A model generated the notes under the pieces. That model saw only the letters and a program-made list of their open reading frames with translations. It did no database searches and was not told the origin of the DNA. This document shows, piece after piece, positions 2,225 to 62,124 of a stretch of 64,000 nt of DNA. How positions within the stretch are numbered: the stretch's first letter is position 1; each line of letters starts with the position of its first letter. The DNA is from Sphaerolaimus hirsutus (Eukaryota; Nematoda; Chromadorea; Monhysterida; Sphaerolaimidae). Location: assembly GCA_964036195.1 (NCBI GenBank), contig OZ038457.1, positions 14,783,147 through 14,847,146 of the forward strand, read 5' to 3'. A program made the position numbers and the translations under genes.

Positions 2225-5200
2225 CTAAAAAATGGTTTTGATGCTCGGGTAAAAAACAGTTAATAAAACGGTAACCAGCCCTAGTAAAAAAGCTAACCAT
2301 TCTGATTTGCTGTTGCCTTTTAGATACGGTGATGGCTCATTTGCCTGAGCCATAGTGTATTTTCTCCAATCTACGCGCTTTCCTCCCTCGTACGGGTCCA
2401 CGTATGTCCATGCACCTAGCAGGTGCCCCAACGGACCATATTGATAGCAGCTGGGGTCTTTGCCATTATTCTGCAGAGTGCGGCAAAATTGTGATAAAAA
2501 TGTGAGAGTGAAGGTGATTACATTTCAAATCAAATAACTCTCAAAGACTGGATTTCATGTAAAAAATAAATCTCACAGTGTCAAAGTAGCAGGCGTTTTC
2601 TGTGTTGAACTGGCAGTCAAATGGGTGATGGCCCATCAAAGGAAGCAGGTGATCCATATTGTTTATCATATTTAACACTGCAGGGTGCGTCAGAAAATCG
2701 CCAAGCGGTTGCTTCCTCACTGCGATTTTATTTCGAACGGAATACAGTATTTAATAGAAATAGCACCAAGGGTTTTTTTTCGTTAGCAAATTTTGAAGGG
2801 GTTAATTCGAGGGAGTTTATTATTTCGTCGGAAATTGTCGTGGAGAAACATTGTCAAGAATAGGCTTTTACATACCCAAAACTGGAAATAAATGTGACAA
2901 AACAGGATACCTATTTGAACACGGGTACCGTAAATGCTCTATTAGTACGACCACCCTCCAATAAAGCGACCCCTCCAATAGTGCAACCCCCTTGGGCTCG
3001 TTGTGTAAGTATAATGCGATCCTCTCCAATAAAACGACCCTTCCAATAATGCAACCCTCAAAAATGTGCTGAAAACAATAAAGCGACAGTCGCCTTAATA
3101 GAGCATTTACGGTATATAGGCGGTAGGCGGCCGGTTGTAAATAGGTATGTAACACTACAGCATAGTTGTTAAAACGTATTTACGTTTACTCGACAAATAC
3201 GGATACTCGAGTACTGTGTAAATACGTTTACGTTTCCTCCCGAAAAAAATACCGGTACCCACTTACTCGCGTACTTTTTGAAAGTACGCGAGTACAGAAA
3301 ACGTATTTCAAACAGGTTTTTAATAGGCTTTTTCAAGGCATAAAGGAACCAAAGGTTGAGAAAAGCTTAAAATATGGACACAATATCCAAAATAGCATAA
3401 AAATAGGCAAAAACACATTAACTAGTGAATTTGATGGTGAAAAAGTTCAAAAAGTAGTGATTTTGAGAGAAAATTGACGCAAAATTTCTCAAAAATACCC
3501 ACTTTTACGTTTTCCGGGGACAAAAGTAATTTACTCACGTTTACTCATGAGTAAAGTAAAAAATGAATACTTTACATTCTCTGTACACACGTGTGAGTAA
3601 AAAATAAATAATTTACGTTTACGTTTACGTTTACTTTTGAAAGGTTCAGTACTTTCAACAACTCTGCACTACAGTCGCGTGGTGTCGCTACTAGTGATGT
3701 TAAAGGCACCGGGAAAAATGGCACCGCACCGCACCGGCACCTTTGCCAACACATGAAAAGGGCACCTGGCACCCTGGGGCACCGGCCAGAAAATGGCACC
3801 GCACCGCACCGGCACCGGTGCCTTTCGGAAAAAATGGCACCGGCACCGAAGGGCACCGGCGGGTTGCTGGTGCTAGCACCGAAAGGCACCGCACCGGGCT
3901 GGAATTTCTGAAGTAAATATTGGGCAGTTTTTCAGTGGTCTCACCTTTGGAAGTGCATATTTCCATGAATTATCAACCGATTTTGATGGTTGAGCACTTA
4001 AAATAATCAGAATGATGTGGCAATCACTTTGAAAAAGCAATTACAATGATAACAAATGAAAGATAAAATATTAAATTCACTACAATGTCCATAGCCACTA
4101 TTGTCTACTGATCGGAGTTGTTGCTGTACAGAGAATGGAACTATCTCTGTCATAATGTGGCCACACAAGCTAGTTTTCAACCAAAATTTTGAAAAGTTGT
4201 AGATCTGCATTGAATGCATTTGAGTTTTCTAGAATGAGGTGCCCGTCATCTACAGTTGACAGTGAGTAGAAAAGTTTCATTCTAGAAAACTCAATGCATT
4301 CAATGCTGATTTACGAGTTTTCAAAAAGGAACATTGAAAACTAGCTTGTGTGGCCCCAAACTGACAACAAACTTTGAACAAAAAAGTAAGATAAATATAA
4401 AATATAAAAATAATTTAAAATTCAACAAAATTTTTGATTCGCTCATCAGATCACGTATCGGGTATAATGGATTTCACAGTAGGTATATTTATTTGATGGG
4501 AGGTTTACAAAATACCGTATTTCCTCGAAATACCCCCCGGGGGGTGATTGTTTCATAGTGCTCCCGAGAGGGGGGGGGGGTTAAACGAGGGGGGTATTTC
4601 GAGGGGGGTTATTATTTCACACTTGAAATCCTAGTACAAAATCGTTGTTTGTGATGTGCGCTGGGGTAGAAAAATGCATCAATAACTGACATGGATAGAC
4701 TCCTGTAGACTAATATTAGTACGTAGATGGTATAAACATTGTTCTAACGTTATTCCGACACTGTTTTAACGTGTGTTCTGCACTACGCAGAACACATACT
4801 GCAGTATTTGTCATGTACGTTCTCTTTACACTCAATCTGTGGGGGGGGGGTATTTCGAGGAAATACGGTAGGCAAAAACGGTTGGGTAAATATATCGCTG
4901 TTTTTTGAAATATGAATAAGCACATACTATGGACAAAATTGCACAGCACAGGAAGCCTTGGGCGGTGCCTTTCCCGGTGCCTTTTACTTTGCCCTGGTGC
5001 TAGCACCTTTGGCACCGGCAAAAAAATGGCACCGCACCGCACCGGCACCGGTGCTATTCTGAAAAAAATGGCACCGGCACCGGCATGGCACTCCTGAAGA
5101 TTGCAATGGCACCGCACCAGCACCGGTGCTGGTGCCCTTCGGTGCCCAGCACCGGGGCACCGGTGCCCCGGTGCCTTTACATCACTAGTCGCTACTGTCA

Positions 5201-8200
5201 ACTGGTGGATTTATAAAATTGAAACATGTCAACCTTTCTTTGTGGACCAATCGGGTGCTGAAACGACCATTTCTCGTGGCTTTGATAGCGGTGTGTAGTG
5301 CACAAGTTCTCTCTTTTTCGTGAGCTCTTTTGCTGCAACGTAAATATACAAAACATTGCAATGTTGAAATTAAAAAAATACATCTTTAATTACAAAAAAA
5401 AACGTTTAACCAAGTTTTTTTACACTCAATTCTAACGCGGTTCACAAAATATTTTTGTCAATGTGAATATAACTACCGTATTTCCTCCAAATACCCCCCC
5501 CCTCGAAATACCCCCCCTCGTTTGACCCCTCCCCCCCCCCCCCCTCTCGAGACCACTATGAAACAATCACCCCCCCCCTCGAAATACCCCCCCAGATTGA
5601 GTGTAAAGGGAACGTACATGACAAATACTGCAGTTTGTGTTCTTCGTAGTGCAGAACACACGTTAAAACAATGTCGGAATCACGTTAGAACAGTGTTTAT
5701 ACCATCTACGTACTAATATTAGTCTACATAACCTTATAAATGGCGGTTTTTGTTGTATTTTTCGACGTCTGCGTACGTTTCAGACGACAATTTCGTACTG
5801 GGATTTGAAAATTTTTCTTGTGAAATAATAACCCCCCCCTCTCGAAATACCCCCCCCCCCTCGTTTAAACCCCCCCCCCCCCTCTCTCGGTACCACTATG
5901 AAACAATCACCCCCCGGGGGGTATTTCGAGGAAAATACGGTATGTATAGGCGGCGGACATCACACATTCACACTTAGTATGAAAAACCAACTGTAACCAA
6001 TCTGAATAATGAACCAAAAATTCTACAGTTTTTTCATCATGATATTTCGTTTTTTAGTATGGAATGATGTATTACGAAAATTTATCAAACATTAAATTAT
6101 GGTAGGTTTTCACACTAGGTGTGCTGTCCGCCGAGTATACCTATATCAATGTAAATATACCTACTGATTATGAACCCCCGTGTTTACCGATATCATTCAT
6201 CATCCCTTGTGCATCAACAAGCTGACTTTCTTGTAACGGATCTGGCTCGAGCTCAAGATCGCCATACTGCTCAGTGTCACAGAAAATACGATTCGTTGTA
6301 TCCATTGACTGGCTGAGAAGTGAGAGTTGTGTGCTAGGACTATAAGGTATTTTTTCAACTTGTAGACTTTGTAGACCTTGAGCAAATTTTGAATGAATTT
6401 GCACAAATTTTCATTCTAAATGTTGAGGTACAAAACATGTAGGTATTTCCATTATTTTTCACCATAAAAAGTGTATAAAACCTGATAAATTTATTTTCAC
6501 TCTCAATTGGATTGGAAAAAGGCCCACCTATATCCTTGAACACTGAAAAATAATTTCACTGCAAAAATACATTTAAAAATAATTGGGATATGGCAAGAAA
6601 TCGCAAAGTTTTATTACTGCATGAAAAAATGCTTTGGTAGTTTACTAACCAAATTTAAAAGAATAGTAGACTCATAAATCAGCTTTGAATGCTTTGCTTT
6701 GAGTGTACTGGAATGGGTTATTTTTGCTAGTTATTAATCTGTAGTTGAGAAACACAATTCTGGTAAACTAAAGCTGATTAATTTTTACTAAATTTTTAGT
6801 TTACCAGTCACCAGTTTACCAGGCTTTGAGTTTACCGAATGAGAATGTGTTAAAAAGTGGTCGATTGGAACCAACGACATAAGTATTTCTTGTCTGCCAT
6901 TCGGTCGGCTAATGCGCGCTGGAAGGCTGGCTGGATGGCGCTTTGCATTCATCCTTTTAAATGTCTCATCTATCGTTTCATCCGGTCCCATAATCCACGC
7001 ATTGTACGGTGGATCCGCCAAACTTTCAAAAGCAACGCAAAATGTCAGTTCCCTTTCTTCAGTTTCCACTGCGATAGCCACATTTTCCAGGGACAATTCA
7101 TCAGGACACACTACGAAACATGGCTCGCGATAGACTCGAGTTTTCTCCTCGATAAAGCACCTGTGAATTAAATTTTCCTGTTTTTTAATGTGGAGCCTAG
7201 CCTACCTAGTCCGACTCCTGGTGGCAATCCCAAGCACTGTAAAGTGTAAAGTAAAGTGTCAAATGTAAAGTCAAATGAAAAGTAAAGTGTCAATTGTGTA
7301 TCCAAATCTTGTATTTTTGTATCCAAATCTTATGTGAAAAAATAAGATTTGGATACAAAAACATAAGATTTGGATACGAAAAATAAGTTTTGGATACACA
7401 ATTTACATTTGACACTTTGCATGACAATTGACATTTGACTTTGCATGACTTTACATTTGACACTTTACATTTGAAATTTGACTCTGCATTTGACTTTACA
7501 TTTGACACTTTACTTTACACTTTACAGGGCTTGGGACCGTCCCCAGGGGGCACTCCCAGACCCTGTAAAGTGTAAAAGACCCTGTAGAGTGTCTAATCTC
7601 ATGTAAAATACACAGTAATGTGTCATGTGTATCCAAATCTTTTCTTTACATGTCCATATCTTATGTTTTTGTATCTAAATATTACATCTAAAAGTAATAT
7701 TTGGATACAGAAACATGAACGATTTTGCATTCCATGCTAGACTTCTTATCTGGCTGTGTGTCGGGCTGGATGATAAAGCCTGCCGTGATGTGACATGAAA
7801 ATAGCATGTGACAGATAATCGACATCTGAGAATATTTTACACCAAAATACTTATGCAACCACGTTCTGCTGGGCACTGCGGTGGGGCGGCAGTACACTGA
7901 CTGCTGGGTACTTCCGTTGTACAACCACAAACAAACCACGGTCCTCCAATCCAGTTGTCAATGTTTCTACAGTAGTTTTCCTGCGCCGATAGTGACCAAT
8001 CTGCGTTGTTGTGCAGCTCATCCCTGCCATCGGTTATCACTATGTGGCTGAAGTGTTCCGCTTTGATCCCAAGTTTGTCATCGAGCATATCCCAGCGAAG
8101 ACAGGGCTTGCCGCTGAAATTCAATCGTTTTTTAAATACTGGCTTACGAGCTACCATCTGTAGGTACCTACTTGGTGCCTACCTGAATGAGATAGCCTGA

Positions 8201-11092
8201 TGACCATTATACCATACCATTGGGTCCCAGGAATACCGGCACTTGATTCTCGCGTCTACAGTCGGCTCTGGTGGGAAGTCCATGCCACCGGTTTTCAAAC
8301 TCCTAAATAGGATGCAATACATTCACGGCGGTTCGCTTAATCCAATAAAAAGCAGTGTACTGATGGGAAAAGCGCCAGGACCTTGGCGCCAAGCGTCATG
8401 GCGCTTTTCACAACCCAAGCGCCAAGCGCCTTGGCTTTTTTTCTTTTGGTGCTAGCGCCAGGCGACAGCACCATGGCGCTTTTCCATAACTAGCAGAGAG
8501 TATTCGGCGATGTGCAAAAACTTCACACCCCACTGCACTAACTCCAGAACGCACGGATACTCCACATGTTTGCAATCTCCCGAAGTCTCATTGCAGAACT
8601 TTCTCCACGTCTCCTCGCTCAACTCCAGCCGCCTGCACTTGTCGTCGCACTTGTAATCCTTTAGTAGTTTTTCACATCCGTCCCAGTTGTCATGTACCGA
8701 CTGCGGCGGTGTGTTCGATTTGACCGCGCCGCCGCACAAATTTGGCTTGAGGCAGTCCGCAGCATTTGTTAGATACACTGGGCTGGTTGCTTTGGCTGTG
8801 GGTTGTGGCCAAGAGTTCTAAACTTTTAATGTGCCGTTTGATGATTGGTTGTGTTTCATAGATATTTTGATACTTTGAAGATTGTTTCTAGAACAAGAAC
8901 AATTAGAAAGTCTTTGATTAGAATTAGAAGGTCTTGAAACAACAAAACAAAATCTTTGATAAGTATTCAATGGCTCAATCAGTTTCAATCTGAGGACACC
9001 GTTGGAAAGTTATTGACCTTGAATTTCGAATCTTGTGATTTGAATTCGGGTGGTTTTCAAAATCGGACAACTCCTGATACATTTGATGACTGACAAAAGT
9101 TGCAGATACAAAAAAATGTAGACAAATCTGAAGGTATCTCAGAAGTATGGGGCAACCTTTGTCACTTAAACATTGCACCGTCGGGCCAGCACGAAAATAT
9201 TTAATGCGATTTTCAAAATTTGTGGTGGACTTGTGCACTTTTGGAATGTCTCTTCAATTAGGTACACATTGAGTAAGACAGCGGGTGATGTTTATTGCAA
9301 TAGATCAGGCTGACCAATAAGAGCACCTCAAGATTAATTTGGTGCTTACAGTGAATATTGGACAGGTGAAAACTCGCCTTTCATAGGACAGCTGTAGGAG
9401 CGGGCACTGGCGCCAGGGTCCCTTGAATTGACTGCGTATCGATTGCCCTCATACGTGAATGGGGTGCCATTGAGCCGGTGGCAAAGTTTTGTCACCAATT
9501 CCGGCGTTTGTGAGGTTTGGATCCATTCATAGCCATCCCACTGTACAAGTTGGGTGTAAATGACGTGAATTTATTGCGCTGTTTTTCTTCGAATAGTTAT
9601 CTAGTATCCATGTTATCTAGTATCCAGGAGAATAGTTATAATATACCGTATTTCTTCTAATAGAAGAGCGCCGTTCTTTTTTTTTAGTGAACTTTTTTAC
9701 CTGCCGTTCTATTAAAGATGCCGTTCTATTGGAGGCTGCCGTTCTATTTTTTTCACCATTAATTTTCAGACAAGTTTCATTTGAACATTCGGTTTTTAAT
9801 CAAAAATGAACAACATTTTACTATCAGAGCATCAATTCAAACAAAACCAAATGTGAAAAAACACTACCTAAATCATAGTTCTGAACAGCTTGGATGTTCT
9901 CACCACCCATTTTATTTATATTTGTGTGTTCTGGCACTCTTCCAACGTAATTTCTACCTGCCGTTCTATTCTATTAATTTCGTGGGTGCAAAAAAGTGCA
10001 AAAAAACCTGCCATTCTATTGGAGGTGCCGTTCTATCGGAGGTATGCCGTTCTATTAGAAGAAATACGGTACTCAGCAGCAAAGTTGTTAAAACGTATTT
10101 ACGTTTATGTACTCGAAAAATACGTATATTCGAGTACAGAGTAAATACGTTTACATTTCCTGCGGAAAAATACCTATGTATACTCAACTTTACGCGTACT
10201 TATTGAAAGTACACGTGTACAAACGACGTAATTCATAAAAATTAATGGTGTGCATAAAAAGCAAAAACGACTCAAACGAATTGAAACAGGAGCAAAAATG
10301 GCAGAAGAAATGATTGTAGTTGCAACGGGTAGGGAAAGTGACAACTCTCACTTTTACTTGTACTCACTTTTATGTTTTCCTGGGTGCAAAAACTACGTTT
10401 ACTGCTTTTACGTTTTCTCTGAGTAAAAAAATTGTTATTGCCGTTTACTTCGCTTTAACGCAGTATAAAGTCAAAAATTGTACTTTACGTTTTCAGGGGG
10501 TGAGCAAAAATAAAATACTTCACGTACGTTTAGTTTGAAAAATATTCAGTACTTTTAACAACTCTGCTTAGCGCAGGGCACGTTGTGTAAACCATTTTTA
10601 TCAGGGACAGATAATACCGTGTTATACTTGAGTATCGCCGCAGCGCCATGCCCACATACCGTATTTATTCTAATAGAACGACATACCTCCAATAGAGCGG
10701 CACGTCCAATAGAACGGCAGGTTTGAGCAACTTTTTGTGCTCAGGAAGAAAATAGAACGGCAGCCTCCAATTGAGCGGCACCTCCAATAGAATGGCGGAT
10801 ACGTAAAAAAAGTTGACGAAAAAATAGAATGGCACTCTACTATTAGAAGAAATACGGTAAACATGCGACTGGTGGGGCCTACAAAATGCTTGCATTGGTA
10901 GCGCAGACAAGCTGCCGAACTTACAGGAAATGCGAACAGTCCATGCACTACCACTTCATTGCCAGCGCTATCAGCCCCTTTCACGAAAAAGAGATCCTCT
11001 ACCCACAGTGCATAATCACAAAGTTCGCCCTGTTTGTAGCTCTTCAGTGCCGCGGGCACAAAAGCAGCGACGAAAATCAACGCTTTTAACAT
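2225..11092 (-). CDS. Kringle-domain secreted/membrane protein, 9 exons
   Basis: Spliced model: 10883-11092, 9350-9540, 8543-8782, 8183-8302, 7937-8113, 6836-7160, 6188-6308, 2577-2677, 2225-2470. The lengths sum to 1731 nt (576 aa) with all phases matching. The protein begins with a signal peptide (MLKALIFVAAFVPAALKS). Residues about 235-331 form a kringle: six cysteines, YNGHQAISFSGKPCLRW, NYCRN and GPWCF, assembled across three exons. This explains the choice of the weak donor CCGTG|GTTTGT. A CHRLNGTPFTYEGNRY segment precedes it, and an acidic low-cysteine region follows. The last residues (WLAFLLGLVTVLLTVFY plus seven more) are hydrophobic, so the protein is either membrane-anchored by its C-terminus or carries a GPI signal. 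Kringles bind proteins or ligands outside the cell; partners here are unknown. The borders of exons 3, 6 and 7 are least certain, and MITEs fill several introns. I do not recognise a named orthologue. Confidence 0.72.
2928..3112. mobile_element. TA-flanked MITE, CCGTAAATGCTCTATTA ends
   Basis: Perfect terminal inverted repeats CCGTAAATGCTCTATTA..TAATAGAGCATTTACGG are flanked by TA on both sides. The interior repeats a CCTCCAATA-A-GCGACC word. 185 bp, Tc1/mariner-like by target site, with no coding capacity. Confidence 0.75.
3161..3666. mobile_element. hAT-like MITE (GTTGTTAAAACG family), 506 bp
   Basis: The ends are CATAGTTGTTAAAACG and AGTACTTTCAACAACTCTG. An exact 8-bp duplication CACTACAG flanks it (3153-3160 and 3667-3674). 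The interior is made of GTAAACGTAAATACG-like words in both orientations. Non-autonomous. Confidence 0.85.
3692..5187. mobile_element. hAT-like MITE with GGCACCGGTGCC words, containing nested insertions
   Basis: The termini TAGTGATGTTAAAGG and CCTTTACATCACTA are flanked by the exact 8-bp duplication GTCGCTAC (3684-3691 and 5188-5195). About 200 bp at each end consists of GGCACCGGTGCC and GCACCGCACC words. The middle (about 3900-4900) is foreign sequence, including the TA-flanked MITE at 4515-4868. Confidence 0.85.
4515..4868. mobile_element. TA-flanked MITE, CCGTATTTCCTCGAAATACCCC ends
   Basis: Inverted ends CCGTATTTCCTCGAAATAC..GTATTTCGAGGAAATACGG lie between TA dinucleotides. The interior carries further TATTTCGAGG and C- or G-run units. 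It is nested inside the 3692-5187 element and so is younger than it. Confidence 0.8.
5476..5940. mobile_element. TA-flanked MITE, CCGTATTTCC/TCGAAATACCCC family
   Basis: Same family as 4515-4868: CCGTATTTCCTCCAAATACC..TATTTCGAGGAAAATACGG between TA dinucleotides. It carries multiple TCGAAATACCCCCC units and long C runs. It shares the internal CGTACATGACAAATACTGCAG stretch with the 4.8-kb copy. Confidence 0.8.
5943..6160. repeat. MITE with GGCGGACATCACA ends (family R)
   Basis: Left end GGCGGCGGACATCACAC, right end GTGTGCTGTCCGCCGAGTATAC. It shares the interior TGAATAATGAACCAAAAATT with the 55.45-55.64 kb copy, where the right end overlaps an exon border of the RAPGEF gene. Confidence 0.6.
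7229..7535. repeat. Long imperfect palindrome of GTAAAGTG words
   Basis: CCCAAGCACTGTAAAGTGTAAAG at the left pairs with CTTTACACTTTACAGGGCTTGGG at the right. The interior repeats TAAAGTGTCAAATGTAAAG and ATCCAAATCTTATG in both orientations. It lies in intron 5 of the kringle gene. Related words recur at 7560-7690 and 27455-27545. Confidence 0.65.
8363..8493. mobile_element. Short MITE with GGCGCCATGGCGC words
   Basis: GATGGGAAAAGCGCCAGG at the left and GGCGCTTTTCCATAACTA at the right enclose GGCGCCAAGCG/CATGGCGC units. Same family as 34258-34465, though a clean target duplication is not visible. It sits just downstream of the probable donor of kringle-gene exon 3. Confidence 0.6.
9646..10069. 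mobile_element. TA-flanked MITE, CCGTATTTCTTCTAATAGAA ends
   Basis: Inverted ends CCGTATTTCTTCTAATAGAA..TTCTATTAGAAGAAATACGG lie between TA dinucleotides. The word GCCGTTCTATTGGAGG is repeated near both ends. 424 bp, inside kringle-gene intron 1. Confidence 0.8.
10080..10566. mobile_element. hAT-like MITE (GTTGTTAAAACG family), second copy
   Basis: Ends CAAAGTTGTTAAAACG and CTTTTAACAACTCTG. The flanks CTCAGCAG and CTTAGCGC are only a degraded 8-bp duplication (5 of 8), suggesting an older insertion. Internal GTAAA/ACG words as in the 3161-3666 copy. Confidence 0.7.
10659..10857. mobile_element. TA-flanked MITE, short CCGTATTTATTCTAATAGAA copy
   Basis: CCGTATTTATTCTAATAGAA..TATTAGAAGAAATACGG between TA dinucleotides. 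It repeats the CCTCCAATAGAACGGCA word. 199 bp, immediately downstream of kringle-gene exon 1. Confidence 0.8.
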
Positions 11093-11469: not shown

Positions 11470-13508
11470 ATGGGCTACAAATCGTCTTACGCGGTGTACT
11501 TGCCGATGACTCTGCTAGTCAGCGCAGTTGTTATCGTTGGTTAGTGATAAACTGATCACAATTATCGAAATGGGGGTTTTATATGATGATTATTTCCACG
11601 TGTCCTATGCCACTTTGTTAATTGCTTCCCTGCCGCAGTGCTGTACTACCTGCTGACGGGACAGGGCCACAAGTTGGACGTTGGCTGGTTCCTGACGGAG
11701 ACGTCGCCGCACATGTGGGGCAGTTTGGGCGTGACGCTCGCGCTGTCGCTCAGCGTGCTCGGGGCTGCTTGGTTCGTGATTGAGTATTTGTCCCGGCATG
11801 GACGTTTCTGGATATTTTTGACCCTTCAAATGTTCTGTGGTTGTTTTAGTTTCCGCATTTGGACCCTCTATTCTAAAAGTCCATGACTTCTAAAAAAATC
11901 GATTTCGAGAAAATTTTACGTTTTATGCCATTTTTAGTTTCATTCCCAATTTTGTGCCAGTGATGCATGTCCATGATGGCGCCCTCCGATAGATTGCCTT
12001 ATTGTCAATTGATGCACATACCAACATTTGGAGAATGTGCGGGCCAAATTGATGATTTCGTTTTTGTGCTTAATTCAACGTTCAAAATTTTTGTAGTTAT
12101 CGACTTTCCGAAGTCGATACATCATGTGTAGTTTCATGTAAAACAGACCAATCGTGGAAAATGTTTTTCCAGCGCCCCGCGCTATAAAACTGCCGCATGA
12201 CTCGCAAAACATGCGCAGGAGAATCTGCCATTTCCCCTAAATTTCATGCGCAGGGGAATCTTCACGACTGGTTCCTCGATTCTGGGCGGTGCGGTAAAAG
12301 CTCCGCGTATACGCACAAAGAATTTGATATCCATTATTTTCTGTGAAGCCGTAGCGATATTCGGCATAATCATGGCATTCGTATTTCAAGCAAAATTGGA
12401 GGATTTTTCGCGGGAGGAGGCGTCGGCTGCCGTGCTGGCGAAAAATCTCGCCGCTGGTTACATGCTGTTTGGTGGTGGATTGACGGTGTGTTTCTTTCGC
12501 TGGATCAATATTTGGCTCAGGGGTATCTTGAATTTTGACCCTCCGAGTGGTTGGATAGATAGCAAATCGCTCCTCCGGAGGGATAGATAGCTGAAAAATT
12601 TTCTGGGGGGGGGTTGGGGGGGGGTTTGGGGGGGGGGTTGTGGTGGTTCGATATATTGGCTTTTTCGGGGCATAGAAGGAAGAAAAGGGAGAAAAATCGC
12701 TAAAAGTAGGTGTAAAATAGCTCAAAATGGGTCTACAAGAGCATATAGTACTTAAAATAGCTGAAAATAGGCAGTTAGACGCATGAACCAGTGATTTTGG
12801 AGGTGAAAATCTATATATAGGTATGAAAAATAGCGATTTTGAGCGAAAATTGGGGTATAGTTTCTGAAAAATCGCTCCAGATAGGTAGATAGCTGGGCGA
12901 TTTGGGGGGGGGTTTAGGGGGTAGTAGCCCAAAATTTTGCCTCCGGGATAGATAGATAGCTGAGCGGCCTCCGGGATAGATAGATAGCTGGGCGGTTTGG
13001 GGGGGGGGGGTAACCCCCCCCCCAACCCCCCCCATTCGAGACCCCTGATTTGGCTCATAGTTGGTTTCAGTTGTAGCAAAGTTGAATGATAAAAGCATTA
13101 AAATAATATAGTTAATTAAACGTTAAGAAACACGAGTAAAATGACAAGAAAATGAAATAAAAATTGAATGAAAGTCAAAATGAAAATAAATGATAATAAT
13201 ACATCTAAAATTTTACTTTTTCTTTACTCTCAATTTGCCATTTGTCATTAAACTTTTCTCCTACCCGAACCGGCCCCTTATAGGTCTCCTAAATGTGACA
13301 TAACAAAATGCCTGTACAGGTCGGCTTCTGCAATCTGGTCTGCGGCATGTCCGTGGGCATCGTGGGCAGCGGCGCCGCGCTGGCCGACGCGCAAGACCCC
13401 GCCCTGTTCGTCAAGGTGCTCATCATCGAGATTTTTGCATCCGCTATCGGACTGTTCGGCATGATCATCGGAATTGTTCAGGTGCGCGGCAAATTGCGTG
13501 ATAGTTGA
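11470..13508 (+). CDS. ATP6V0B: V-type H+-ATPase 21 kDa proteolipid subunit c''
   Basis: Spliced exons 11470-11539, 11639-11771, 12254-12485 and 13320-13508 give 207 aa in frame. That matches the usual length of about 205 aa for this membrane-ring subunit of the proton pump Vo sector. The protein has an N-terminal hydrophobic helix ([14 protein letters not shown]), then paired proteolipid hairpins: [37 protein letters not shown], and a helix with the conserved acid in [18 protein letters not shown]. The second repeat follows ([20 protein letters not shown] and [20 protein letters not shown]). Position 11470 is the first ATG, in a purine context, and gives the family N-terminus. A 530-bp MITE occupies intron 3. 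The gene is divergent from the kringle gene. Identification is secure. Confidence 0.96.
12518..13047. mobile_element. hAT-like MITE family A, complete 530-bp copy
   Basis: The ends CAGGGGTATC and GAGACCCCTG are flanked by a perfect 8-bp duplication ATTTGGCT (12510-12517 and 13048-13055). The interior has repeated GATAGATAGCTGAGCGGCC and GCCTCCGGGATAGATAG words and long G runs. It lies in intron 3 of ATP6V0B and is the reference copy for this family. Confidence 0.92.
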
Positions 13509-13534
13509 GGAAAACTGTTTGATGTTTGCAGCTC

Positions 13535-13945
13535 TTATGATTAGGATTCGTCCGGGATCGTGATTGTTTTTTCGGGTTTCTTGGATTATTGTCTTGGGAT
13601 CGGGATTCTGGACAAAGTTCAAGTGTTCGGGGTATTTCTCTAATTTTTGACAAATGTGTCTAAAAACATGTGGCTGCAACAGATGTGGTATAAAATGCAC
13701 ACTGACGCATGGATCGGGATTGTTATTTTTTTGTTGAAAAGTTTCGGGCCGAGATTGGGATTTTGTTGACTTTTAGATATGTGAATAGGGTTCAAACGGG
13801 ATCCCGATCCCGAATCCCGAGAAATTTCGGGATTTTGTGGTCCCGATCCCGAAACCTCAATCCCGATCCCGAGACTTTGAAAATCCCGATCCCGATCCCG
13901 AAAAAATGCCCCAATCCCGATCCCGGAAAAATTCACAGACACAAA
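13535..13945. repeat. GATCCCG-word repeat (family M), partial
   Basis: Multiple CCCGATCCCGAA and CGGGATCG units lie on both strands, including GGGTTCAAACGGGATCCCG near 13790. Related to the complete copy at 52658-53466. Borders unclear. Confidence 0.55.
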
Positions 13946-14575
13946 AGGTGCCAGAAAGGCACTTTTAAAGGACCATTTTGTATGCAGTTTGCAAAAATTT
14001 GCAAAGCACATAATTTCACATGCAAATTGCCATTGGTGGTTGTTTTCATTGGTTTTGTAGCATTTTAGTGGTATTGCTTCTATTCCTGCATGGTATCATG
14101 TAATAATAAGTTGAGGTGATATGTCAGTGTAGTAAATAATATCCAGCCAATGTGCTTCCACTTTTCTACAGTGTGAAACATCACTGTCATGTATTAGGCA
14201 TCTTTTATAGCCAAATTTAAGCACTATTCCATGCCTAACTTCACTTGCAGTCAAGAAACATTCAAAAACGGCGATATACATAATAAGTCGACATACAATT
14301 GGATTTTTTGGCAGAAATCAGCACTTATCAGCACACATCAGCACTAATCAGCACACATCAGATGATTACATAGCCATTCTATGGTAATATATCATCAAAA
14401 GTACTGCTACTTGTCTGATATACCTGTATATATTGACTCAGGACCATATTTGGGAGCTTTTTGGGTAACGTCTTGACAATTTTTGAAAAAAAGCGAAAAA
14501 GCGCGCTTTTTAAAAAAAGCGCGCTTTTTAAAAAAAAGCGGGGCCGTTAAAAAAGCGCTTTTTTCCATCCCTAAT
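13945..14575. repeat. Degraded TAGGGATGG-family (family L) hAT MITE
   Basis: It shares CATTGGTGGTTGTTTTCATTGGTTTTGT and the AGCACT/ATCAGCACA stretch with the copies at 36.7 and 41.1 kb. It ends in AAAGCGCGCTTTTTAAAA words and TTCCATCCCTAA. The left border is lost. Confidence 0.55.
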
Positions 14576-46400: not shown

Positions 46401-49400
46401 TTTGGGTCAGTGTGGTGTTTTGGTCATTTTACGTCTTATTTGGCCCCGTCTTGGTTTGGAACCTATTTTTTCATCCGGTTCAAAGAAAAACTGCTAGTGA
46501 AAAAATGTTTAATTTAAAAAAGTTTTTGGCTTTAAGGCGGTTCACACACTGGTTGACACACATATGTCAACTGGTCTGTGTCAACTCCAAATGCACATGC
46601 GGCAACGTTGTAAAATAAATATTACGCCAAGTCCATTGGGGGATCGCTCTGCGACACTGAAGTCGAAATCTGAGTTGACACGGACCAGTGTGTGTAGGTC
46701 GCCTAAAAGTGGATCGTTGAAAAACGTAGAAGCCAAACGCTTCTCTCAACCCTAACCCAGTGCAAAAATCCTGCGCAGACCTGTGCGACGACGAGTCGTG
46801 TCCGAGCGGCGACTCTTTGCTGTGCGCCGCCGGCGTGGCCGGCAGCGGGTCCGAGTCGCCGCTGTGCGACAACGTGCGCCTCGCCCTGGACAAGGAGCCC
46901 GACGAGAGAACCGAGAGCGACTTGAATAAGTTGCTCGAGTTTATGCTGCACATGCCCGCTTTCGCTGGTTGGTGATGATATTGGTTTTGACTCGATGGTA
47001 GAATGTGAAGTAGGTAGCTGTGAGGTGGTCATAGTCCACTGATGATAAACTTTATAATGAAATCTATTATATTCCATCTGAATCAAAAACTTTAAAAAAG
47101 TATTATTCTCTCATCACATTACATTAACCCCACCCACTATGGGTGAATTTGTTGCACAATTTTCCAGGTGACTTTATTCATCAAAATACGGTAACATTTA
47201 TCGTAAAGTGTTCAGTCCATTCAGTATAGCAAAATATTTCTGTCGCAGAAATGCCTGTCGGCGTGAAGCGGGAGCTATGCAGACGAATGGTGTTCGCCCA
47301 GGTGGAAAGACAGGGCGATATCATCATGCGAGATGGAGAAATACTGGACAGCTGGTCAGTGAACAATCCATTCTCACAATGACGCCACACACGCTGAATG
47401 TCAACTCAATTTTTAGTGAATTATGAATTATGTTATGCTATTTAGTTGACATTGAGTTGACACGAATTCGCGATGTCAACTAGCGTGTGTGGGCCCAATA
47501 TCATTCATCACTAAAATGATAATCAATGCCCAAATTGTCCTCAACCCAGGTGCGTGATCGTCAACGGCGAAGTGGAAGTGATAATGCCGTCCGGTCAGCG
47601 GCAAGAGTTCCACCTGGGCGACGCGTTCGGCGTGCAGCCGGCGCCCGGCGAGCAGCGCCAATTGGGCACCATGCGCGCCGCCGTGGCAGATTGCCAATTT
47701 GTGTTGGTGGCTCAGGAGGACTTTGTGAGGATCATGGCTGGAGCCAACGAGCACAGGACGAGAGGCAAGGATGGAACTGAGTATGAAAAGAGGTTAGAGT
47801 GGTAATTGTTTGCGTGTAAAAACCTAGTGGAGCGCATGCTTTGCGCAGAGACCTACCATAATTTGATGAATAAAATCTTGTGATAAATTTCGTAATTAAT
47901 TATCATTATCATAGTAAAAACGAAATATTATGCTGAAAAAACTGTATAATTTTTGGTTCATTATTCATATAGGTTTTTATTCCGCCGAGTTATACGCCGG
48001 TTCCGATGCATGTTTTTATCACCTTGCTTTTTCAGAGTCTATGAAGGGCAGAGCGAATGCCGTGTCTTGGTGCGCGCATCGACTGAAACACTTTTGGACC
48101 ATTTATTAGCAGATCGAGACTCGAACGCTGATCCTTATTACGTTGAGGATTTTCTATTGATGTACAGAGTATTTATGAGCGATCCAGTCCTGATATTCAG
48201 GAGATTTTTGCACTGGTTTGAGGACCCTCATAAGCGGGAGAAGGTTCGTTTCATATTTTCGTTATCGCTAGAGCTCTTTTGCATGCGGACTAGTTTACTG
48301 CCAGATTTTGGTACACTCATTTGAACGCATTTGAGTTTACTGAAAAAAGTTATGCTTGATACCCATTAATTGCAGTTGACAGACAGCTCATTCTGGTAAA
48401 CTCAAATGCATTCAAACCAATTTTTAAGTTTACCTACCAAAATGTGGCGGTAAACTAGTGTGCGCAGCGCCAATGTGACATCGGCAGCGCAGCGCAATGA
48501 CTGTATGCTTCACATGACGCAGGTGGCCCGTCTGGTGCTCTTGTGGGTGAACAATCACTTCAACGACTTCGAGACCAACGCCGAGCTGATGCAGCTGCTC
48601 GACCAGTTCGAGTTGCGGCTCGAGTCGCACGACATGCACAACCACCAGTCGCTGTTGAACATCGCCTGCAGTGTGAAGTCGCGCGCCAGAACGGTCACTT
48701 ACACTCGCTCCAACCGAGACGACATGCTGCATTTCAGCGTGCTGGGCGGCAAGGACTCCGGCTATGGCATTTTCGTGTCAAAGGTTTGTCGGGCGCTTGA
48801 AAAGTTCCTTGAGACTTGTCTGTGGCACGGCGCCAAATTTGTGTCTTGTGTTCGAAAACTGCCGCTGTGATGATGTTTATTCTATTATTCGCGGTTTCCA
48901 CGGAGCGGGCCCCGCGTCGCTCGCGAGGACGTCCTAGCCCTTCCTTAGAAGTCTGAGCGGCACAGTTGTTGTTTTATCAATAATTTTCTCGTCATTTTTA
49001 TATTTGGTGCAATTAGTTACCTAATTGATGGTAATTTTCATCTCGTATCAATGTTTCAGGTGGAGAGCAATTCACAAGCGGAGCGCGTGGGACTGAAGCG
49101 GGGTGATGAAATTCTAGAAGTCAATAACCAGAGCTTCACGCAAATTCCCCACCAACGCGCGCTGGAAGTTTTGCGCGGCTCGACCCATTTGGCGATCACG
49201 GTCAAGTCGAATCTGTTGGGCTTCAAGGAGATGCTCGCCGCCGGCGACCGGGCAGATTCGGGTTATGGAGCCGGCCAGCACAGCCCCAAGAGGTACGTGC
49301 AAATTTAAGATTTTGTCCATCCTCTTTTGTCAATTTTTTTATTTGCATTGAAAAATTGCTGATTTTTAGAAGATAGGATAAAATATAATCTCAGAAAATC

Positions 49401-52400
49401 TCTCAAAAATTGAATGTGAGTAAATCTCTCTCGAAATACGTGGAAGAAAATAAATGCAATATGTTTTATATTCTGTGATGTTTTTTGAAATCTCAGAAAA
49501 TCTCTCAAAAAGTAAATATAATAAAATTTATCTTGAAAATCATAAATAAATATAAATATAAAACGGAAGATTTTGATATTTGTAAATAAAAATCTCCCAG
49601 GTAATTTTTCAACGTTATTCATCATCCCCGCAGGACTGCCTTGCCTGGTGGTCGGATACAATTGAAAGGAACTCAGGGGTCAAAGCAGGGTGGTAAATAC
49701 GCGGCCGGCTTCGTATCGGCGAACTCGGGCGGCAGCGGCGCCAGTTCGCGTCAAATCGAATCGGCTAATCCAGACGCAGTTTCGAATTGTAGTCATGGCA
49801 CGCAGAACAGCAACCTGACAAAAATCAGAAGCTACATCAACAGAATACGAATGTCCAGTTTTGGCCAATTGCACGGTGAGAAATTTCGTGTTGTAGCGCG
49901 TCAAAAAAATTAATTGGTCCTGCCTAGGGTTCAAACGATATATCGTATCGAATATCGGATATCGACCATTTTTTAATATCGAATATCGATATCGAAAATT
50001 TTGAAAAAATATCGAATATCGAATATCGATATCGAAAAGTCATATCGTTTGAACCCTAGTCCTGCCGGCATTTTTTTTTTTTATTACTTTATTGGCCCTA
50101 CACTCACTGGTTTTCACCGTGACATGTGTGAAAACTGAAATGGCGACATGGCGACATTCAGCCTACTCTTATTGTATGCTATACAGGGGTCTCCAGGATT
50201 TTGGCCCTCGCGGGGGCTGGATAGATAGCAAATCGCTCCTCCGGAGGGATAGATAGCTGAAAAAATTTTCTGGGGGGGGGGCTCGCGGGGGCAAAATATA
50301 GAGGTTTTTTCAGTGCATAGAAGACAAAAAGGGGAAAAAATCGGTAAAAACGGGCTAAAAATGGCTAAAAATAGGTATTTAAACATGTACATAGGGGAAA
50401 GCCGCGATTTTGAAGGTGAAAAACTATAAAATGGTATGAAAATTAGGGATTTTGAGCGACAATTGGGACAAAATTTCTCAAAAATCGCTCCAGATAGGTA
50501 GGTAGCTGAGCGATTGGGGGGGGGGCTAAGGGGGTAGTAGCCAAAAGTTTTGCTTCGGGATAGATAGATAGCTGAGCGGCCTCCGGGATAGATAGATAGC
50601 TGACGGATTTGGGGGGGGCAGCCACCCCCCAGCCCCCCCCCTAGGAGACCCCTGATGCTATATGTGTTTTAGTTTACAAATTTTCAATTTGTAACTTTTA
50701 TTAAATTTAATTCAAATTTAATTTTAATTCAATCATTCAACCGGGTTCATTTATTCGCATTTTTAAAAATTTCAGTTTTCACACAAAGTCACGGTGAAAA
50801 CTAGTGTGTGTAGGCACATTATGTAGGGGGTAGGCAGTTGTAGCTACTATATATTTACCTATCAACTGATGTAAACCATTGAAAATTAACTTAAAAACCT
50901 ACTAAATTCAAACCAATGTTTTGTCAAATTCCCTTCCTGACCACTAGAATCCGTCACGCAGACAACGAGAGCCTAGACTCTCACAACTCATCGGCCACAT
51001 TGGGCACCAGCAGCCGCGGCTACGACGCGCCCGACTCTGCCGCCAGCAGCAGATCTCAGCTCATGAAGCACTCGCGCTCGAATCCGGACATCGCCAACCA
51101 CCAGGTGCAGTCGGGCGTCAACGAGGGCCTCTCCCAGTACTACAGGCCGACGCGACCCGCCAACCCGGAGCACGTGCTCAAGATATACAGGGCTGACCAG
51201 AGCTTCAAGTACTTGACCGTTTATAGGGAGACTACGGCGGGTGGGGTGGTTGCCTTGTCGCTGCAGGAATTTGGCATGCAGGTCGGTTTTTTCTCTCGTT
51301 TGATTTTGATTTTGGGGCGGGGGGTTGTGTCTCATTTTCAGTTGACGGTTTGAGTTGACAAATCCATTTTTACAATTTAATTTATTCTTAAAAGTGTATA
51401 AATACGTTACAAAACTTTTCTCATTTATTTGGTGACGGTATTTAACCGTGAAGTTTTATTCTGTGCAGGAAGAGTCTAGTCCGAACTGGAGCTTGTGCGA
51501 GGTGACTGCCACTTCGGATGGTGTTGTGAAACAGAGACGCCTGCCTGACACTATGAGCAACTTGGCTGAGAGGATACAACTGAACTCCAGGTGAGGGGGT
51601 GATATGGGCTCCCGCACTCTTGTTGACATCGCAAATAAATGTTAACTTGATGTCAACTAAATAACATGAAAAATTTTAAAGCATCATACTTAACAGAAAC
51701 AATACAAATTACCATAAGTGTCACGATATCAACTAAACTAATATTGCTCTACCACATAGGAAAGTTGAAATCACATAATTAAGCTTAATTTAGTTGACAT
51801 CAATTTTGATGTCAACTAGTGTGTGAGAGCCCTATGCCGCAGATATCTTATGGCGTCATTTTTGTCTCAAGAGGTTAGAATCATATATGACACGAACACT
51901 TTTGCAGATATTACCTGAAGAACAACCTGTTGTCCGACCCGCTGGTGCCGGACAGCCTGGCGCACGACCTCGCCAGGGAGGCGGCCACCAAAATTGCCAC
52001 GCTCAGTGCGCATGTTGTGGCCGCTCAGCTCACCCTTCAGGATTACGCCATATTCGCTGGAATTGAACCCACTGAGTATGTGGACAATCTATTTCGGATA
52101 CAGAGCGCCTATGGCTGGCCCAAGTTGCAGTTGTTTGAGGAAGTGGTCAATAAAGAGACTTGGTTGGTGTTTGAATCGGCTTGACACATCTGAGGCTAAC
52201 TCCAGCTTGCAACCTCACAAAAAAAACAACAAATTTTGCGACAAAATGAATAAATAACAAATGCATATCTGTATGGGCATTTGCCTCATTTTTTCGGTAC
52301 ACGGTTGTCTCAAGCCCTGCGTATTTCGTCACTGTTCAAATTCCTCACAATACAACCAAAAATCCACCCTATAGGTGGGTGGCTACCGAAATCTGCCGCG

Positions 52401-55400
52401 AGAAGAGCTCCGCGTTGAAGCGCGCCCGCCTGGTGAAGAAGTTCATCAAGATCGCGCGCCACTGCCGCGACTTCCACAACTTCAACTCGATGTTCGCCGT
52501 AGTGAGCGGGCTGGAGAAGCCGGCCGTGCGCCGCCTGCACAACACCTGGGAACGGGTGCCGGCCAAGTGGATGCGCGTGCTCAAGGACCTCCAGGCGCTG
52601 CTAGACCCGTCCAGGAACATGAGCAGATATCGGTGCGTCCGTTCGACCATTGGAGACTAGGGTTCGAACGCGATCCCGATCCCGAATCCCGAACATTTTC
52701 GGGCTTTTGCGATCCCGAAACCGCAATCGCGGTCCCGATCCCGAAAAAATATAATCCTGATCCCGATCCTGGAAAAATTTGCCGACTTAATTACCGTATT
52801 TCCTCGAAATACCCCCCCTCCTCGAAATACCCCCCTCAAAATTGACACTATGAGATTATAAACCCCCCTCGAAATACCCCCTCCCCCCAATATAGTGTAT
52901 AGAGAACGTAAATGACAAAAGCTACGGTTTGTGATCCGGGAAACGTACAACACACGTGAAAAACGATGACTGTGTTATATCAGAACAGGGTTCATACCGT
53001 CTACGTACATATTTATATAAGTCTATAGAGTCTTATACATGGCAGTTTTTGTTGCATTTTTCGACGTCTGTGTACGTTACAGACAACAAATTAGTACTGG
53101 GATTTCAAAAAATTTCTGGCGAAATAATAACCCCCCCCCCCCTCGTTTAACCCCCCTCAAAAATCTCACTCTGAAAAAATAATCCCCCTGGGGGTATTTC
53201 GAGAAAATACAGTAAATGCCATTTTGCACCGATATATGTGAACAGAAACCTCAAGTTTTCACTTTTTGTCACTTTTCTGGCATCCAGATGTCTTTTTAAA
53301 CCATTTTTATGACAAATCCAAGAAAACCTTTAAAATCAGAACTTATAAAAAAAAATCAATAATCAAATAAAAATCATAATAAATAAAATCCCGATTCCGA
53401 AAAAATTAAATAACAATCCCGACCCCGATCCTGGAAAGTCTTGAACCCGATCCCGTTTGAACCCTATTGGCGACGTCGCTTTGAGAGCTCGCATAACGCT
53501 TTTTGCTTTTTGCAGTCAGCACCTGGCCGAGTGTGCGCACGATCCACCAGTGGTGCCATTATTTCCAATGATAAAAAAGGATCTAACTTTTATCAACGAC
53601 GGCAACAAGACCACTGTGACTGAGGGCATCATCAATTTCGACAAGCTGCGTATGATCGCCAAGGAGATTCGTGCAGTCATGAAAATGGCCAGTGCCCCGT
53701 ACGAACTGCAGTCGATGGGCACCGCGTCGCAGGTGTGCATTGGTGGAAGGAAAAAGTTATCAATTCATTTAAGTTAGAAAAAGTAACTTGTATCGTTTCA
53801 GGCTGGCGGCGGCGGCAGGCTAGACGATGCTCTTCTGTATATGAATTCGTTTGAAGGCGGCGCCAACGTCGCTACTATCAGAAGACCGCTGCAGATGAGC
53901 AATCAGGTTAGAAAACTCACTCAAAAAGTTTCGATAGAATCGTGCCGTACCGCCGCGCGTGTCAGACGCAGACGCACCATTCTCTGCCTCGGCCGGCCGC
54001 CATCCCGCGCAAGAAGCTCTACGAGCAGGCGCTGATGGTGCGCAAGGTCAAGTCCTACTTGAGCTCGTTGGACGTGATCGACACCGAGTCGCTGCTCGAC
54101 CAGCTGTCGGTGGACTGCGAAGCGCCCGGCCCGTCGGGCAGCAGCAACAGCGTGGGCAAGCAGCAGCACCACCAGCAGCAGTTCGGCCTGTCCGAGCGCG
54201 AAGGCTCCGTCGCGTCGACGAGCCCCGGCGGCCGCCTTTCTGCCGCTGCGATGCGCTCGGCCGGCAGCCGCCGATCCGCGGCCAGCATTGGAGCGGAGAC
54301 GACCGGCGCCGGAAAAATGGCCGCTCACGGACCGAAATTCGGTTGGTTTCGGTTCGGTTTCAACGGCAGTGTCGTGTTTCATCTTTCTGTTCTGACGCTT
54401 TTGTTTTTATCGTGGTGTTTGTCGGCCCCCTTTAGTCGTTTAGTGATTTAGACCCTTTTGATTTAGGCCATTCCCACCTACTGTGTTAGACTAGCGTAAC
54501 TGTGTTGTCGCCGCTTCCAAGGCATGGACTCTCCCGCTGCGGTGCAAAAGTTGCTGGCGTTGGCTAGCGAGACTTGCTGCGCGCCCACGCATCAGGGCAC
54601 TTTGCGATCGGGCAGACAGGCGGCCGTTTGCGGCACTCCGCCCGGTCGACTGCAGCGCGACCATCATCGACACAGACACGGACAGCCACCTGTGATGTTG
54701 CGACGGCAGTCGTCCAACGAGGACGTCCACTGCGGCGGCGCCAAACGCGCCGGCGGCGGCGGCAAGTGCGCCAAACGGCGGCAGTCGGCCACGCCGCTGG
54801 GCGCCTGCTCCGCCAGCGACAGTCCAGTCCCGGTCGTCCTGACGGCAGAGTCGAGCGCTGTCAGCGGCACTGGATCGCGGGTGCGCAGCACGGGTGGGTT
54901 TGAAAAGGTTATCGGCTCCAGCCTTCGTGATGTGGTTCGTGTTTAGATCGTGATACTTTTACCCTGTATATTACCTATTTTTTCAATTGAATTTCAATCG
55001 ATTCTTACCTCCTTACTTCTCGGTGTCGCTTAGCTGGTGTCGGCTTAGTTTACTTCTGACGCTGAAATGCCATCTGTAAAGAGTTACCACCGCTGGAAAT
55101 TCCCTCATATGGATTTTTACGTCTCAGGCTCGCTGACGTCTACGGATTCGACCGTGTCGTCGTGCCCGTCGGCCGCGCTGCAGCAGCCCCGCGGCGCCAC
55201 GCTGTCGGCTGCATCTGCTGCCGTACCTGGCCACGGTGCCCCGCCGCAGTCGATGAGCCAGTCGGCGTCGTGCGACAGCGCCGACTCGGGCAAGGGCGGC
55301 AGCAGCTGCGCCAACGACTGGCCGCCCCCGCCGCCGCCCTTGGTCACCGTGCAGCACGCGCACCGATTGGGCGACAAGCGCGCCGACGACAACAAGGTTC

Positions 55401-60874: not shown

Positions 60875-61862
60875 TTTCTTTCCAAAAAAAAGATTCTTAG
60901 TTTTGAAAAAACTGATCAGATTATCACGGAGTTCTGAACTCAGTCTGAATCTACGCTTAATGAAATTCAGTCCAAGTGCAGCTTCACTTACTGTATAGTA
61001 TTTCCATTTGTTAAATACCTTTGTACGTGCCGCAAACAAGTTTTTCATCACACATGCGCTGAGGGGGATTTATTAGAGTCGGCGAATCATTTTTACCACC
61101 CTACTCAGACGGGTAGTTTCTTCGGGTGAGGTTTCATTCGTGGACGCACAGTATTTTTTCTCGGACTCTTTATTGTGTCGACATTCGTTTTGGTTTTGTA
61201 TGCACAGTGCCGTTTTATGCATTTCCTGGAAGTTGTTATAAATATAGCTAGGTAGGTATATTGATTGATCGCCACTCGTAAAACAAACTTTTTGAATTTG
61301 TCGTTTTATCAACATGGAAAAAAATCTGAAAAAACTTGAATAGTGTTGTGATGGTTGCTACAGCTGCGGCCAGACAAGTTATCTGATATTTTATTGTGGG
61401 TTTTCACGCAAAAATTACCTAGTAAGTTCAATCAACTACTACATATGCATCACGTTCACGCAAAAATTATTTATAACCAATGTGATCAATGACATGAATG
61501 AGAATCAAAATATATGTGCGTGATCAAAAAGGGTTTCTAAATAATCAAATGACAAAATAAATTGATATATCTATATATTTATTTATAAACGCATTCGACA
61601 TGAATAAAGCTATAATACCTCTGATCAATGATATTCTGCTGTCTTAATGTAGCGTAATGGCACACAACATCTATTCCAACTACACTTGACCAGAAATAAA
61701 AAATGAGTAAAACAATGAATGACTGAATATTAAACACACTGTTTTAATCGTTAGTGCATTCGTACTTCCTGTGGCAGGACCTTGGACGGCCACGTGTGGC
61801 TCAAAAGGTGAATATTTATGTGGGGAATCTGGCTACCTACTCCAAGTTGAACAGGTTCCTGC
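60875..61862. other. 3' flank of the Arg-rich gene, AT-rich spacer
   Basis: No exon or bordered repeat was recognised. AATAAA motifs occur near 61555. Confidence 0.4.
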
Positions 61863-62124
61863 TAGTGATGGAAAGGTACCGGGCACCGGTCCGCTGGTGC
61901 CGGGCACTTAAGGGCACCGCTGCGGATTTTCAGAGGTGCTGGTGCCTTTTTTCAGAATAACACTAGTGCCAGTGAGATGCAGTGCTATTTTTTGCTGGTG
62001 TGTTTAGGTGCTAGCACAAGTGGTAAAGTAAAAGCCACCGGAAATTTGCCAGTGCCATTTTTTTCGATTGGCACTGGTAATGGTGCAGTGCGGTGCCATA
62101 TTTCCCGGTACCTTTACATCACTA
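61863..62124. mobile_element. hAT-like MITE, TAGTGATGGAAAGG ends, GGCACCGG core
   Basis: TAGTGATGGAAAGGTACC..GGTACCTTTACATCACTA. The flanks GTTCCTGC and GTACCAGC match at 6 of 8. Core of GGCACCGGT and TGGTGCC words, as in 3692-5187. Confidence 0.75.

Follow-up and report, generated by a model that had tools for sequence, protein, structure and literature searches.

Subterminal word arrays of hAT-type transposons in Sphaerolaimus hirsutus: sister subfamilies differ in nearly every shared word

We analysed 64,000 nt of the genome of the nematode Sphaerolaimus hirsutus (assembly GCA_964036195.1, contig OZ038457.1, positions 14,783,147 to 14,847,146 of the forward strand; hereafter the window, with 1-based coordinates), where an earlier note had described miniature inverted-repeat transposable elements (MITEs) with cores made of many copies of one short word. 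Five of the families described, A to E, are hAT-type non-autonomous transposons whose words stand in arrays behind a short tip. In a further hAT-type family, with the tip CAGAGTTG, three subfamilies are one letter apart in nearly every word that they share. The words are probably subterminal transposase-binding repeats, specific to each family, and would have been rewritten in step with recognition. We favoured selection for binding words because the words are subterminal, mostly uniform within an element and common to hAT-domain elements with similar tips.

Transposon families of the window

The genome searched comprised 348 Mb in 762 contigs. The survey DNA consisted of the window and 20 regions fetched around hAT-domain matches; fetched genome loci are numbered L001 to L061, each with its own local coordinates. 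The elements of the window are listed below by position, with a strand only where one was assigned.

3692–5187: A1, hAT-type non-autonomous element, 1,496 bp; tip TAGTGATG, word GGCACC/CGGTGCC, 8-bp duplication GTCGCTAC
4513–4870 (including the flanking TA): F1, TA-type MITE nested in A1; tip CCGTATTT, word CGAAATACCCC
5474–5942: F2, TA-type MITE; tip CCGTATTT, word CGAAATACCCC
8358–8492: B1, GCGCCA/GGCGCC MITE; tips TACTGATGG / TAGTTATGG, no in-register duplication
9644–10071: G1, TA-type MITE; tip CCGTATTT, word CTAATAGAACGGC / CCGTTCTATT
10657–10859: G2, second CCGTTCTATT-family element
13786–13960 (end approximate), plus strand: left end of a TAGGGTTC element, word GATCCCG; right end not located, absent from the earlier list
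32528–33039: further hAT-type element; tip TAGGGTTGG, duplication CAGCACAC, enrichment marginal (reached by 2/50 shuffles)
34258–34465: B2, hAT-type MITE; tip TAGTGATG, word GGCGCC/AGCGCCA, duplication ATCCAATG
36666–37383: E1, hAT-type element; tip TAGGGTTGG, AAACGTT at both ends, unique middle, duplication ATCTTTGG
41081–41725: E2, hAT-type element; tip TAGGGATGGCC, duplication GCCGCGTC, word enrichment within chance
43042–43846: H, inverted-repeat element; long inverted ends, word GGCTTACC at both
49925–50058: D1, hAT-type MITE; tip TAGGGTTCAAACG, word ATATCG, duplication GTCCTGCC
52658–53466: C1, hAT-type element; tip TAGGGTTC[GA]AACG, word GATCCCG, one-mismatch duplication TTGGAGAC/TTGGCGAC
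61863–62124: A2, TAGTGATG element whose GGCACC words have decayed; flanks match at 6/8

The terminal inverted repeat (TIR) of hAT elements is short, with the start consensus YA..G. Families A to E end in TAGTGATG, TAGGGTTC, TAGGGTTGG or TAGGGATGG and are flanked by 8-bp target duplications, except for one mismatch at 52658, a 6/8 match at 61863 and no duplication in register at 8358. Such tips and duplications are hallmarks of hAT transposons, and A to E are hAT-type non-autonomous elements. The 8-bp duplication and the YA..G start were also found in the CAGAGTTG, TAGGGTGTC and TAACGATGG families, and at least six further hAT-type tip-and-word families beyond A to E occurred in the survey. The elements have the character of MITEs: they are short (134 to 1,496 bp in the window), carry TIRs, occur in many copies and are without a complete transposase gene. 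A first look at the genome gave 2780 candidates for the family of 3692 and 105 for the ATATCG family, with 40 scored in each case.

The eight families had been thought unrelated, with differing target-site lengths. The first part of this did not stand, as A to E have hAT-type tips in common and F and G share one tip; the lengths do differ, but they resolve to two, 8 bp (A to E) and TA (F and G), and a search for a target duplication around H found none. Two loci also needed new coordinates. Positions 3692, 4515 and 5187 do not mark separate features; they belong to a single element, 3692–5187, with the nested element at 4515. The element at 52658 extends to 53466 and is interrupted at 52792 by a CCGTATTT element, the right end of which was not located.

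Position of the words

We compared the best 6-, 7- and 8-mer of each window element with those of 200 dinucleotide shuffles. The segments used were 3692–5187 minus the insert 4513–4870 (A1), 8360–8493 (B1), 52658–52791 only, before the insert (C1), 4515–4868 (F1), 5476–5940 (F2), 9646–10069 (G1) and 10659–10857 (G2); the element at 52794 was not entered on its own. At k = 7, all 200 shuffles were beaten by A1, B1, B2, C1, D1, E1, F1, G1, G2 and H. F2 beat all of them at k = 6 and k = 8 and was reached by 3/200 at k = 7. A2 was weak, with 24/200 shuffles reaching it at k = 7 and none at k = 6. The description of the interiors as word arrays thus applies to most of the shuffled loci, faintly to 61863 and not to 41081.

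A scan for inverted tips, requiring a hAT-like YA..G start and exact 8-bp flanking duplications, found 43 pairs in the window and the 20 regions, a few of them nested in one another; 20 offset controls averaged 1.15. When each of these elements was compared with 50 shuffles, 40 of the 43 beat them all (6/8 within the window alone). For elements of at least 400 bp that exceeded all shuffles, we profiled the density of the top word in 50-bp bins from the nearest end, and obtained 40.6, 46.7, 47.3, 28.2, 6.6, 1.7, 1.5 and 3.0 per kb. In elements of this length the words are subterminal and keep to roughly the outer 200 bp on either side. At 134 or 208 bp, a MITE consists largely of its two end arrays, which meet and so look like a core. 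The word arrays are real, then, but the look of a word-built core is partly an effect of length; the idea that cores as such are special was rejected.

The earlier note had proposed to see whether the number of words varies while the tips stay fixed. In the ATATCG family it did vary, from 8 to 22 either-strand word matches across 11 left arrays (overlapping matches counted). The GGCACC subfamily did not follow: 25 to 27 copies of GGCACC/GGTGCC and no GGCGCC were present in 8/8 duplication-bearing elements listed, from 10 sequences. Slippage may explain the whole-unit length differences in arrays.

Different words behind one tip

To describe word purity, we counted the words that follow directly behind each tip over a stretch of 170 bp, in all fetched DNA and the window, and dropped tips with fewer than three words (9/50 for TAGTGATG, 3/37 for TAGGGTTC and 16/44 for CAGAGTTG). 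At least 90% of the words were of one kind behind 37/41 TAGTGATG, 32/34 TAGGGTTC and 18/28 CAGAGTTG tips, the maxima with shuffled words being 17, 6 and 5, respectively; since copies of one master are not independent, these counts describe masters more than events. A1 contains 27 GGCACC/GGTGCC and no GGCGCC. An element at L045 contains 29 GGCGCC and no GGCACC, and B2 has 3 GGCGCC and 12 GCGCCA/TGGCGC with 1 GGCACC/GGTGCC. Where families have one tip in common, the word of one is largely absent from the others. Both the comparison of tips and the purity counts bear out the view that elements with nearly the same tips carry different words.

In the TAGGGTTC family, right ends after TAGGGTTCAAACG carry CGATAT, CGGGAT or CGGGACC around a similar spacer, something similar in outline to the word rewriting of the CAGAGTTG family described below. 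The converse case was found at L047 6772, where a TAGGGTTGGG tip precedes an ATATCG array.

Concerted word difference in the CAGAGTTG family

Tips of the CAGAGTTG family also occur in the window (e.g. at 3666, 10566 and 21322) and were absent from the earlier list. The family consists of three subfamilies, with the words AAACGTA, AAGCGTA (GCG) and AAGTGTA (GTG), which are one letter apart in nearly every shared word. We compared 13 sites fixed in one AAGCGTA element, six in the right end and seven in the left; tandem triplets could change together, so the sites amount to about nine blocks. L014 and L050 had AAGCGTA at 13/13 sites. L002 had AAACGTA at 12/13, with a one-base gap at the thirteenth, and L039 had AAGTGTA at 12/13, the thirteenth being the same word aligned one base off. 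Over the whole element, 14/15 words of L050 correspond to AAGTGTA in L039, including two in the opposite orientation; the fifteenth sits in the middle, where the two elements look unalike.

A second comparison used 14 sites fixed in the AAGCGTA majority alone. We preferred it to an earlier pattern-based count, in which the rest of the word was fixed and low rest-of-word differences arose partly by construction. L002 differed from the majority at 13/27 of word positions 3–4 (at position 3 wherever aligned), at 0/65 positions in the rest of the word and at 26/168 other positions. The corresponding values for L039 were 15/28, 3/65 and 12/168, and all three rest-of-word differences, together with one of the fifteen word differences, stem from the shifted site. 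The site counts exclude L031, L040 and L046+5160, which are truncated or of another tip subtype. With these included the contrast was noisier: between GCG and GTG right ends, positions 3–4 differed in 133/240 cells, the rest of the word in 107/516 and the spacer in 352/1322. The CAGAGTTG subfamilies would, we infer from these alignments, record a change of recognition that was carried through nearly all sites and co-evolved with the DNA-binding domain of the transposase.

Transposase remnants within the elements

Profile searches of the genome for PF05699 (the hAT C-terminal dimerisation domain) and zf-BED accepted matches at E up to 0.001. PF05699 gave 28 matches, 19 of which lie inside array-bearing elements with tips and a duplication; these are 18 of 19 tabulated rows (L016 was discounted, its pair being inside an array) plus L015. 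By tip and word, nine belong to TAGGGTGTC/ACGGAAA, seven to TAACGATGG/TTCGAAA, two to CAGAGTTGG/AAACGTA and one to TAGGGTTC/ATATCG. The duplications of the L013 and L019 elements have one mismatch. Two of the seven TAACGATGG elements (L024 and L025, at C626:2703-6769) are 3.8 kb apart with the same duplication, CATACAGG, and are probably one element in tandem duplication, not two insertions. With lengths of about 1.0 to 2.0 kb, the 19 elements have the look of copies derived by internal deletion.

The L019 element (L039 4611-5999) encodes a peptide with the hAT dimerisation motif between TAGGGTTCAAACG tips and ATATCG arrays, and so belongs to the family of 49925 in the window. A partner with a hAT domain and the same words, of the kind that the earlier note had proposed to look for, was therefore found for this window family; for four other words none was seen in the DNA examined, as discussed below. 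The C-terminal peptides of the TAGGGTGTC and TAGGGTTC families had a mean identity of 48%, and those of CAGAGTTGG and TAGGGTGTC 30%, values in which two doubtful labels raise the between-family identity: L010 was labelled by a neighbouring TAACGATGG tip while its own element is TAGGGTGTC, and the L020 peptide looks like those of the CAGAGTTGG family, and the adjacent ATATCG array is probably not its own. Similar tips thus seem to accompany similar C-terminal domains despite different words.

Six zf-BED matches lie within about 23 kb in the genome region C1:7466186-7488779, none near a hAT dimerisation domain; this is maybe a tandem cluster of BED genes.

The TA-target group

Families F and G have TA target duplications and paired tips. 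CCGTATTT sites were preceded by TA in 58/69 cases (window, L001-L008 and L037-L061). Both families have the tip CCGTATTT after TA in common and differ in their words (CGAAATACCCC vs CTAATAGAACGGC); in relatives this tip is followed by GAATAATTCCCC, TTTATAACACC or GTATAAGGCC. Among 18 paired CCGTATTT elements, 16 had at least one internal copy of the tip-adjacent word and 2 had none, and two word types inside one element were found in 0/18. In CGAAATACC elements the internal copies number only one to three. Open reading frames lie between such paired tips. This group looks like a similar design to the hAT-type one in a second superfamily, with a TA target such as that of Tc1/mariner. A literature search with the tip CCGTATTT returned nothing beyond a paper on barley Ac/Ds and led nowhere. 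In L047, about 5289–5777 is a masked stretch (N).

Further observations in the window

Elements with CAGGGGT tips, 8-bp duplications and CTATCTA words lie at 12518–13047 and 50184–50654 of the window and at L037 5928-6438; they may form one more word family of hAT type. A further dense stretch of CTATCTATCC words lies at about 23–25 kb. A 198-bp inverted repeat (32128–33457; 93% complementary), whose words contain ACATG, encloses the TAGGGTTGG element at 32528–33039. At 7217–7713 a TTTACATTTGACACTTTGCATGAC-like unit is repeated in inverted and tandem arrays, possibly another similarly built element. RasGEF exons lie at 47950–52657; the ATATCG MITE stands between exons, and the GATCCCG element follows just after one exon.

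Discussion

On the reading that we favour, the short conserved tip at each end would be the site of cutting by the transposase, and the array behind it, built of a word of about 6 to 8 bp that is specific to the family, would be the site of the cognate transposase's N-terminal DNA-binding domain. Many such sites near each end could load a transposase multimer, and would be retained when the rest of the element is lost; a short MITE would then be two docking arrays back to back. Tip and word may evolve separately, the tip with the catalytic and dimerisation part of the protein and the word with its DNA-binding part. A shift in binding specificity would alter nearly every word in both arrays alike. 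That the words are transposase sites, and that a change of specificity drives their rewriting, we infer from the DNA.

Several observations weigh against this reading. The survey regions were preselected for a hAT domain, so the survey is silent on how general the build is among all transposons, and the non-independence of copies from one master, noted above, counts here too. The best 7-mer of E2 was reached by 61/200 shuffles, which is within chance. Outside elements, 41 of 120 random segments of the same length also beat all 50 shuffles, with a median excess of 1.36 against 3.40 for elements; some of the strongest have the element words ATATCGA, AGCGCCA, AAACGGA or CCGGTGC as their top word, so this control seems to hold unrecognised copies and the contrast is one of degree. 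Behind 4/41 TAGTGATG, 2/34 TAGGGTTC and 10/28 CAGAGTTG tips, less than 90% of the words were of one kind. Single deviating words occur in all three CAGAGTTG subfamilies (one of 6 right-end sites in L054-1222 reads AAGGGTA), one left-end site is AAGTGTA in both the GCG and the GTG subfamily, and the AAGTGTA majority is drawn from two right ends and one left end. In the DNA examined we found no complete transposase with a DNA-binding domain, and no hAT domain enclosed by elements with GGCACC, GGCGCC, GATCCCG or AAACGTT; the enclosed domains cover four word families only. The 8 zf-BED matches of the genome include none near a PF05699 match, and none of the words is thus linked to a protein recognising it.

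Instead of being rewritten one site at a time, whole arrays could have passed from family to family through recombination or end exchange; we consider this unlikely. Parts do reassort, as the TAGGGTTGGG tip with an ATATCG array at L047 6772 and the unlike middles of GCG and GTG elements indicate. The CAGAGTTG spacers, however, match across subfamilies, with only those 12/168 non-word differences between L039 and the AAGCGTA majority, so these arrays are homologous and were not replaced.

It is improbable that the words are functionless simple-sequence DNA, grown by slippage or template switching from a different seed in each family. The variable number of whole units in ATATCG arrays and the tandem triplets formed by some words are in keeping with such growth. 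But the words crowd into the outer 200 bp or so at both ends and thin out deeper. Those of the CAGAGTTG family, dispersed among unique spacers in both orientations, are changed almost as one between subfamilies and yet retain the rest of the word; slippage would take the spacers along. Template switching near the ends had been suggested as a generating process beside selection for multiple transposase-binding words. It does not explain spacers that are mostly kept while words change; the word differences do not need it, and the second suggestion is the one that we favour.

We give a similarly low probability to the proposal that the word differences (GCG to GTG, GGCGCC to GGCACC) are CpG decay of one ancestral word, with recognition unchanged. 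Both pairs do differ by a C-to-T type change at CpG, and single decayed words occur in GCG copies (AAGCATA in L054, AAGTGTA in L034). Decay predicts TG and CA in about equal numbers, yet the in-register sites of L039 were AAGTGTA in 12/12 cases and AAGCATA in none, in both orientations; GGCGCC is palindromic, so this argument from direction does not apply to it. Moreover, AAACGTA vs AAGCGTA and CGATAT vs CGGGAT are non-CpG changes, and arrays of uniform words are found again at separate insertion sites whose duplications are intact. That the words bind a host factor, for example in silencing or transcription, and not the transposase is very improbable: the DNA alone is compatible with it and some words are palindromic, but one factor should favour one word. 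The families instead differ in word, each with the same one at its two ends, and their tips go with hAT remnants.

The build itself is already known. The earlier note knew of no named class for the build; the hAT literature, seen here in excerpts of the papers cited below, does name subterminal repeats (PMC10368747). In Hermes, the catalytic steps take place at the tip, and the transposase, an octamer, contacts several short subterminal repeats through its N-terminal BED domains; the ends hold 17 and 14 AAG(T/C) motifs, and the authors state that most hAT transposons have subterminal repeats (PMC10368747). Kat1 has AATTCA or its complement six times between the TIRs, with a polarity that differs between the ends (PMC4763223), and Herves has the motif CG/AATTCAT (PMC3143072). 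Ac, Tol2 and Tag1 are cited in hAT papers as further examples. The elements described here resemble Hermes, Kat1 and Herves in that each end combines a short tip with a short motif in several copies. Here, by contrast, the arrays are nearly uniform and may account for the bulk of a MITE. Between sister subfamilies, a single fixed position of the word is changed in almost all copies that they share, a comparison that we did not meet in those excerpts.

Galileo and Foldback-like elements offer another likeness, namely a conserved tip and a family-specific interior, with repeated transposase-bound sites in Galileo (PMC3688188). In Galileo about 40 terminal bp are conserved across families while the TIR interior is family-specific, and the THAP N-terminal domain binds repeated TIR sites; some other subfamilies are bound weakly or not at all (PMC3688188). 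It differs in belonging to the P superfamily and in having TIRs of >1 kb and three mapped sites, and the excerpts describe no site-by-site rewriting (PMC3688188). Coral CMITEs are similar in that, between MITE families, the interior changes at another pace than the tip; they have a TTAA target and are piggyBac-related, and their interior is conserved and their TIR variable, the reverse of the elements here (PMC2872659). Tetris of Drosophila virilis has repeated units inside a MITE or foldback element (PMC4079207). Judged by titles and listing, the repeats of Tetris and of Xenopus MITEs are satellite-like, while the words here are subterminal and word-sized. The Xenopus MITEs carrying tandem repeats were reportedly described by Hikosaka and Kawahara in 2004. 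A few searches of listings and excerpts of the open-licence literature yielded no account of sister subfamilies in which almost all word copies differ and the spacers are kept, or of mutual word exclusion between families with one tip.

A wider picture is possible, and we hold it tentatively, leaning slightly the other way. The elements may belong to a transposon radiation with a two-part address, a slow tip for cutting and a fast word for recognition, in which words would be rewritten in step with the transposase at a dozen sites or more, regardless of end and orientation, until sister families stop cross-mobilising; the design may have arisen twice, in hAT and in the TA-target superfamily. 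The puzzle is how a transposase and a dozen dispersed sites shift specificity together without losing function midway. Sister subfamilies with matching tips and spacers and one letter changed in almost all words would be ready-made test pairs for such a joint change. If the reading is true, the sequence of a MITE predicts what a hAT transposase binds, and it suggests a reason for the success of short MITEs, which would be little beyond docking arrays.

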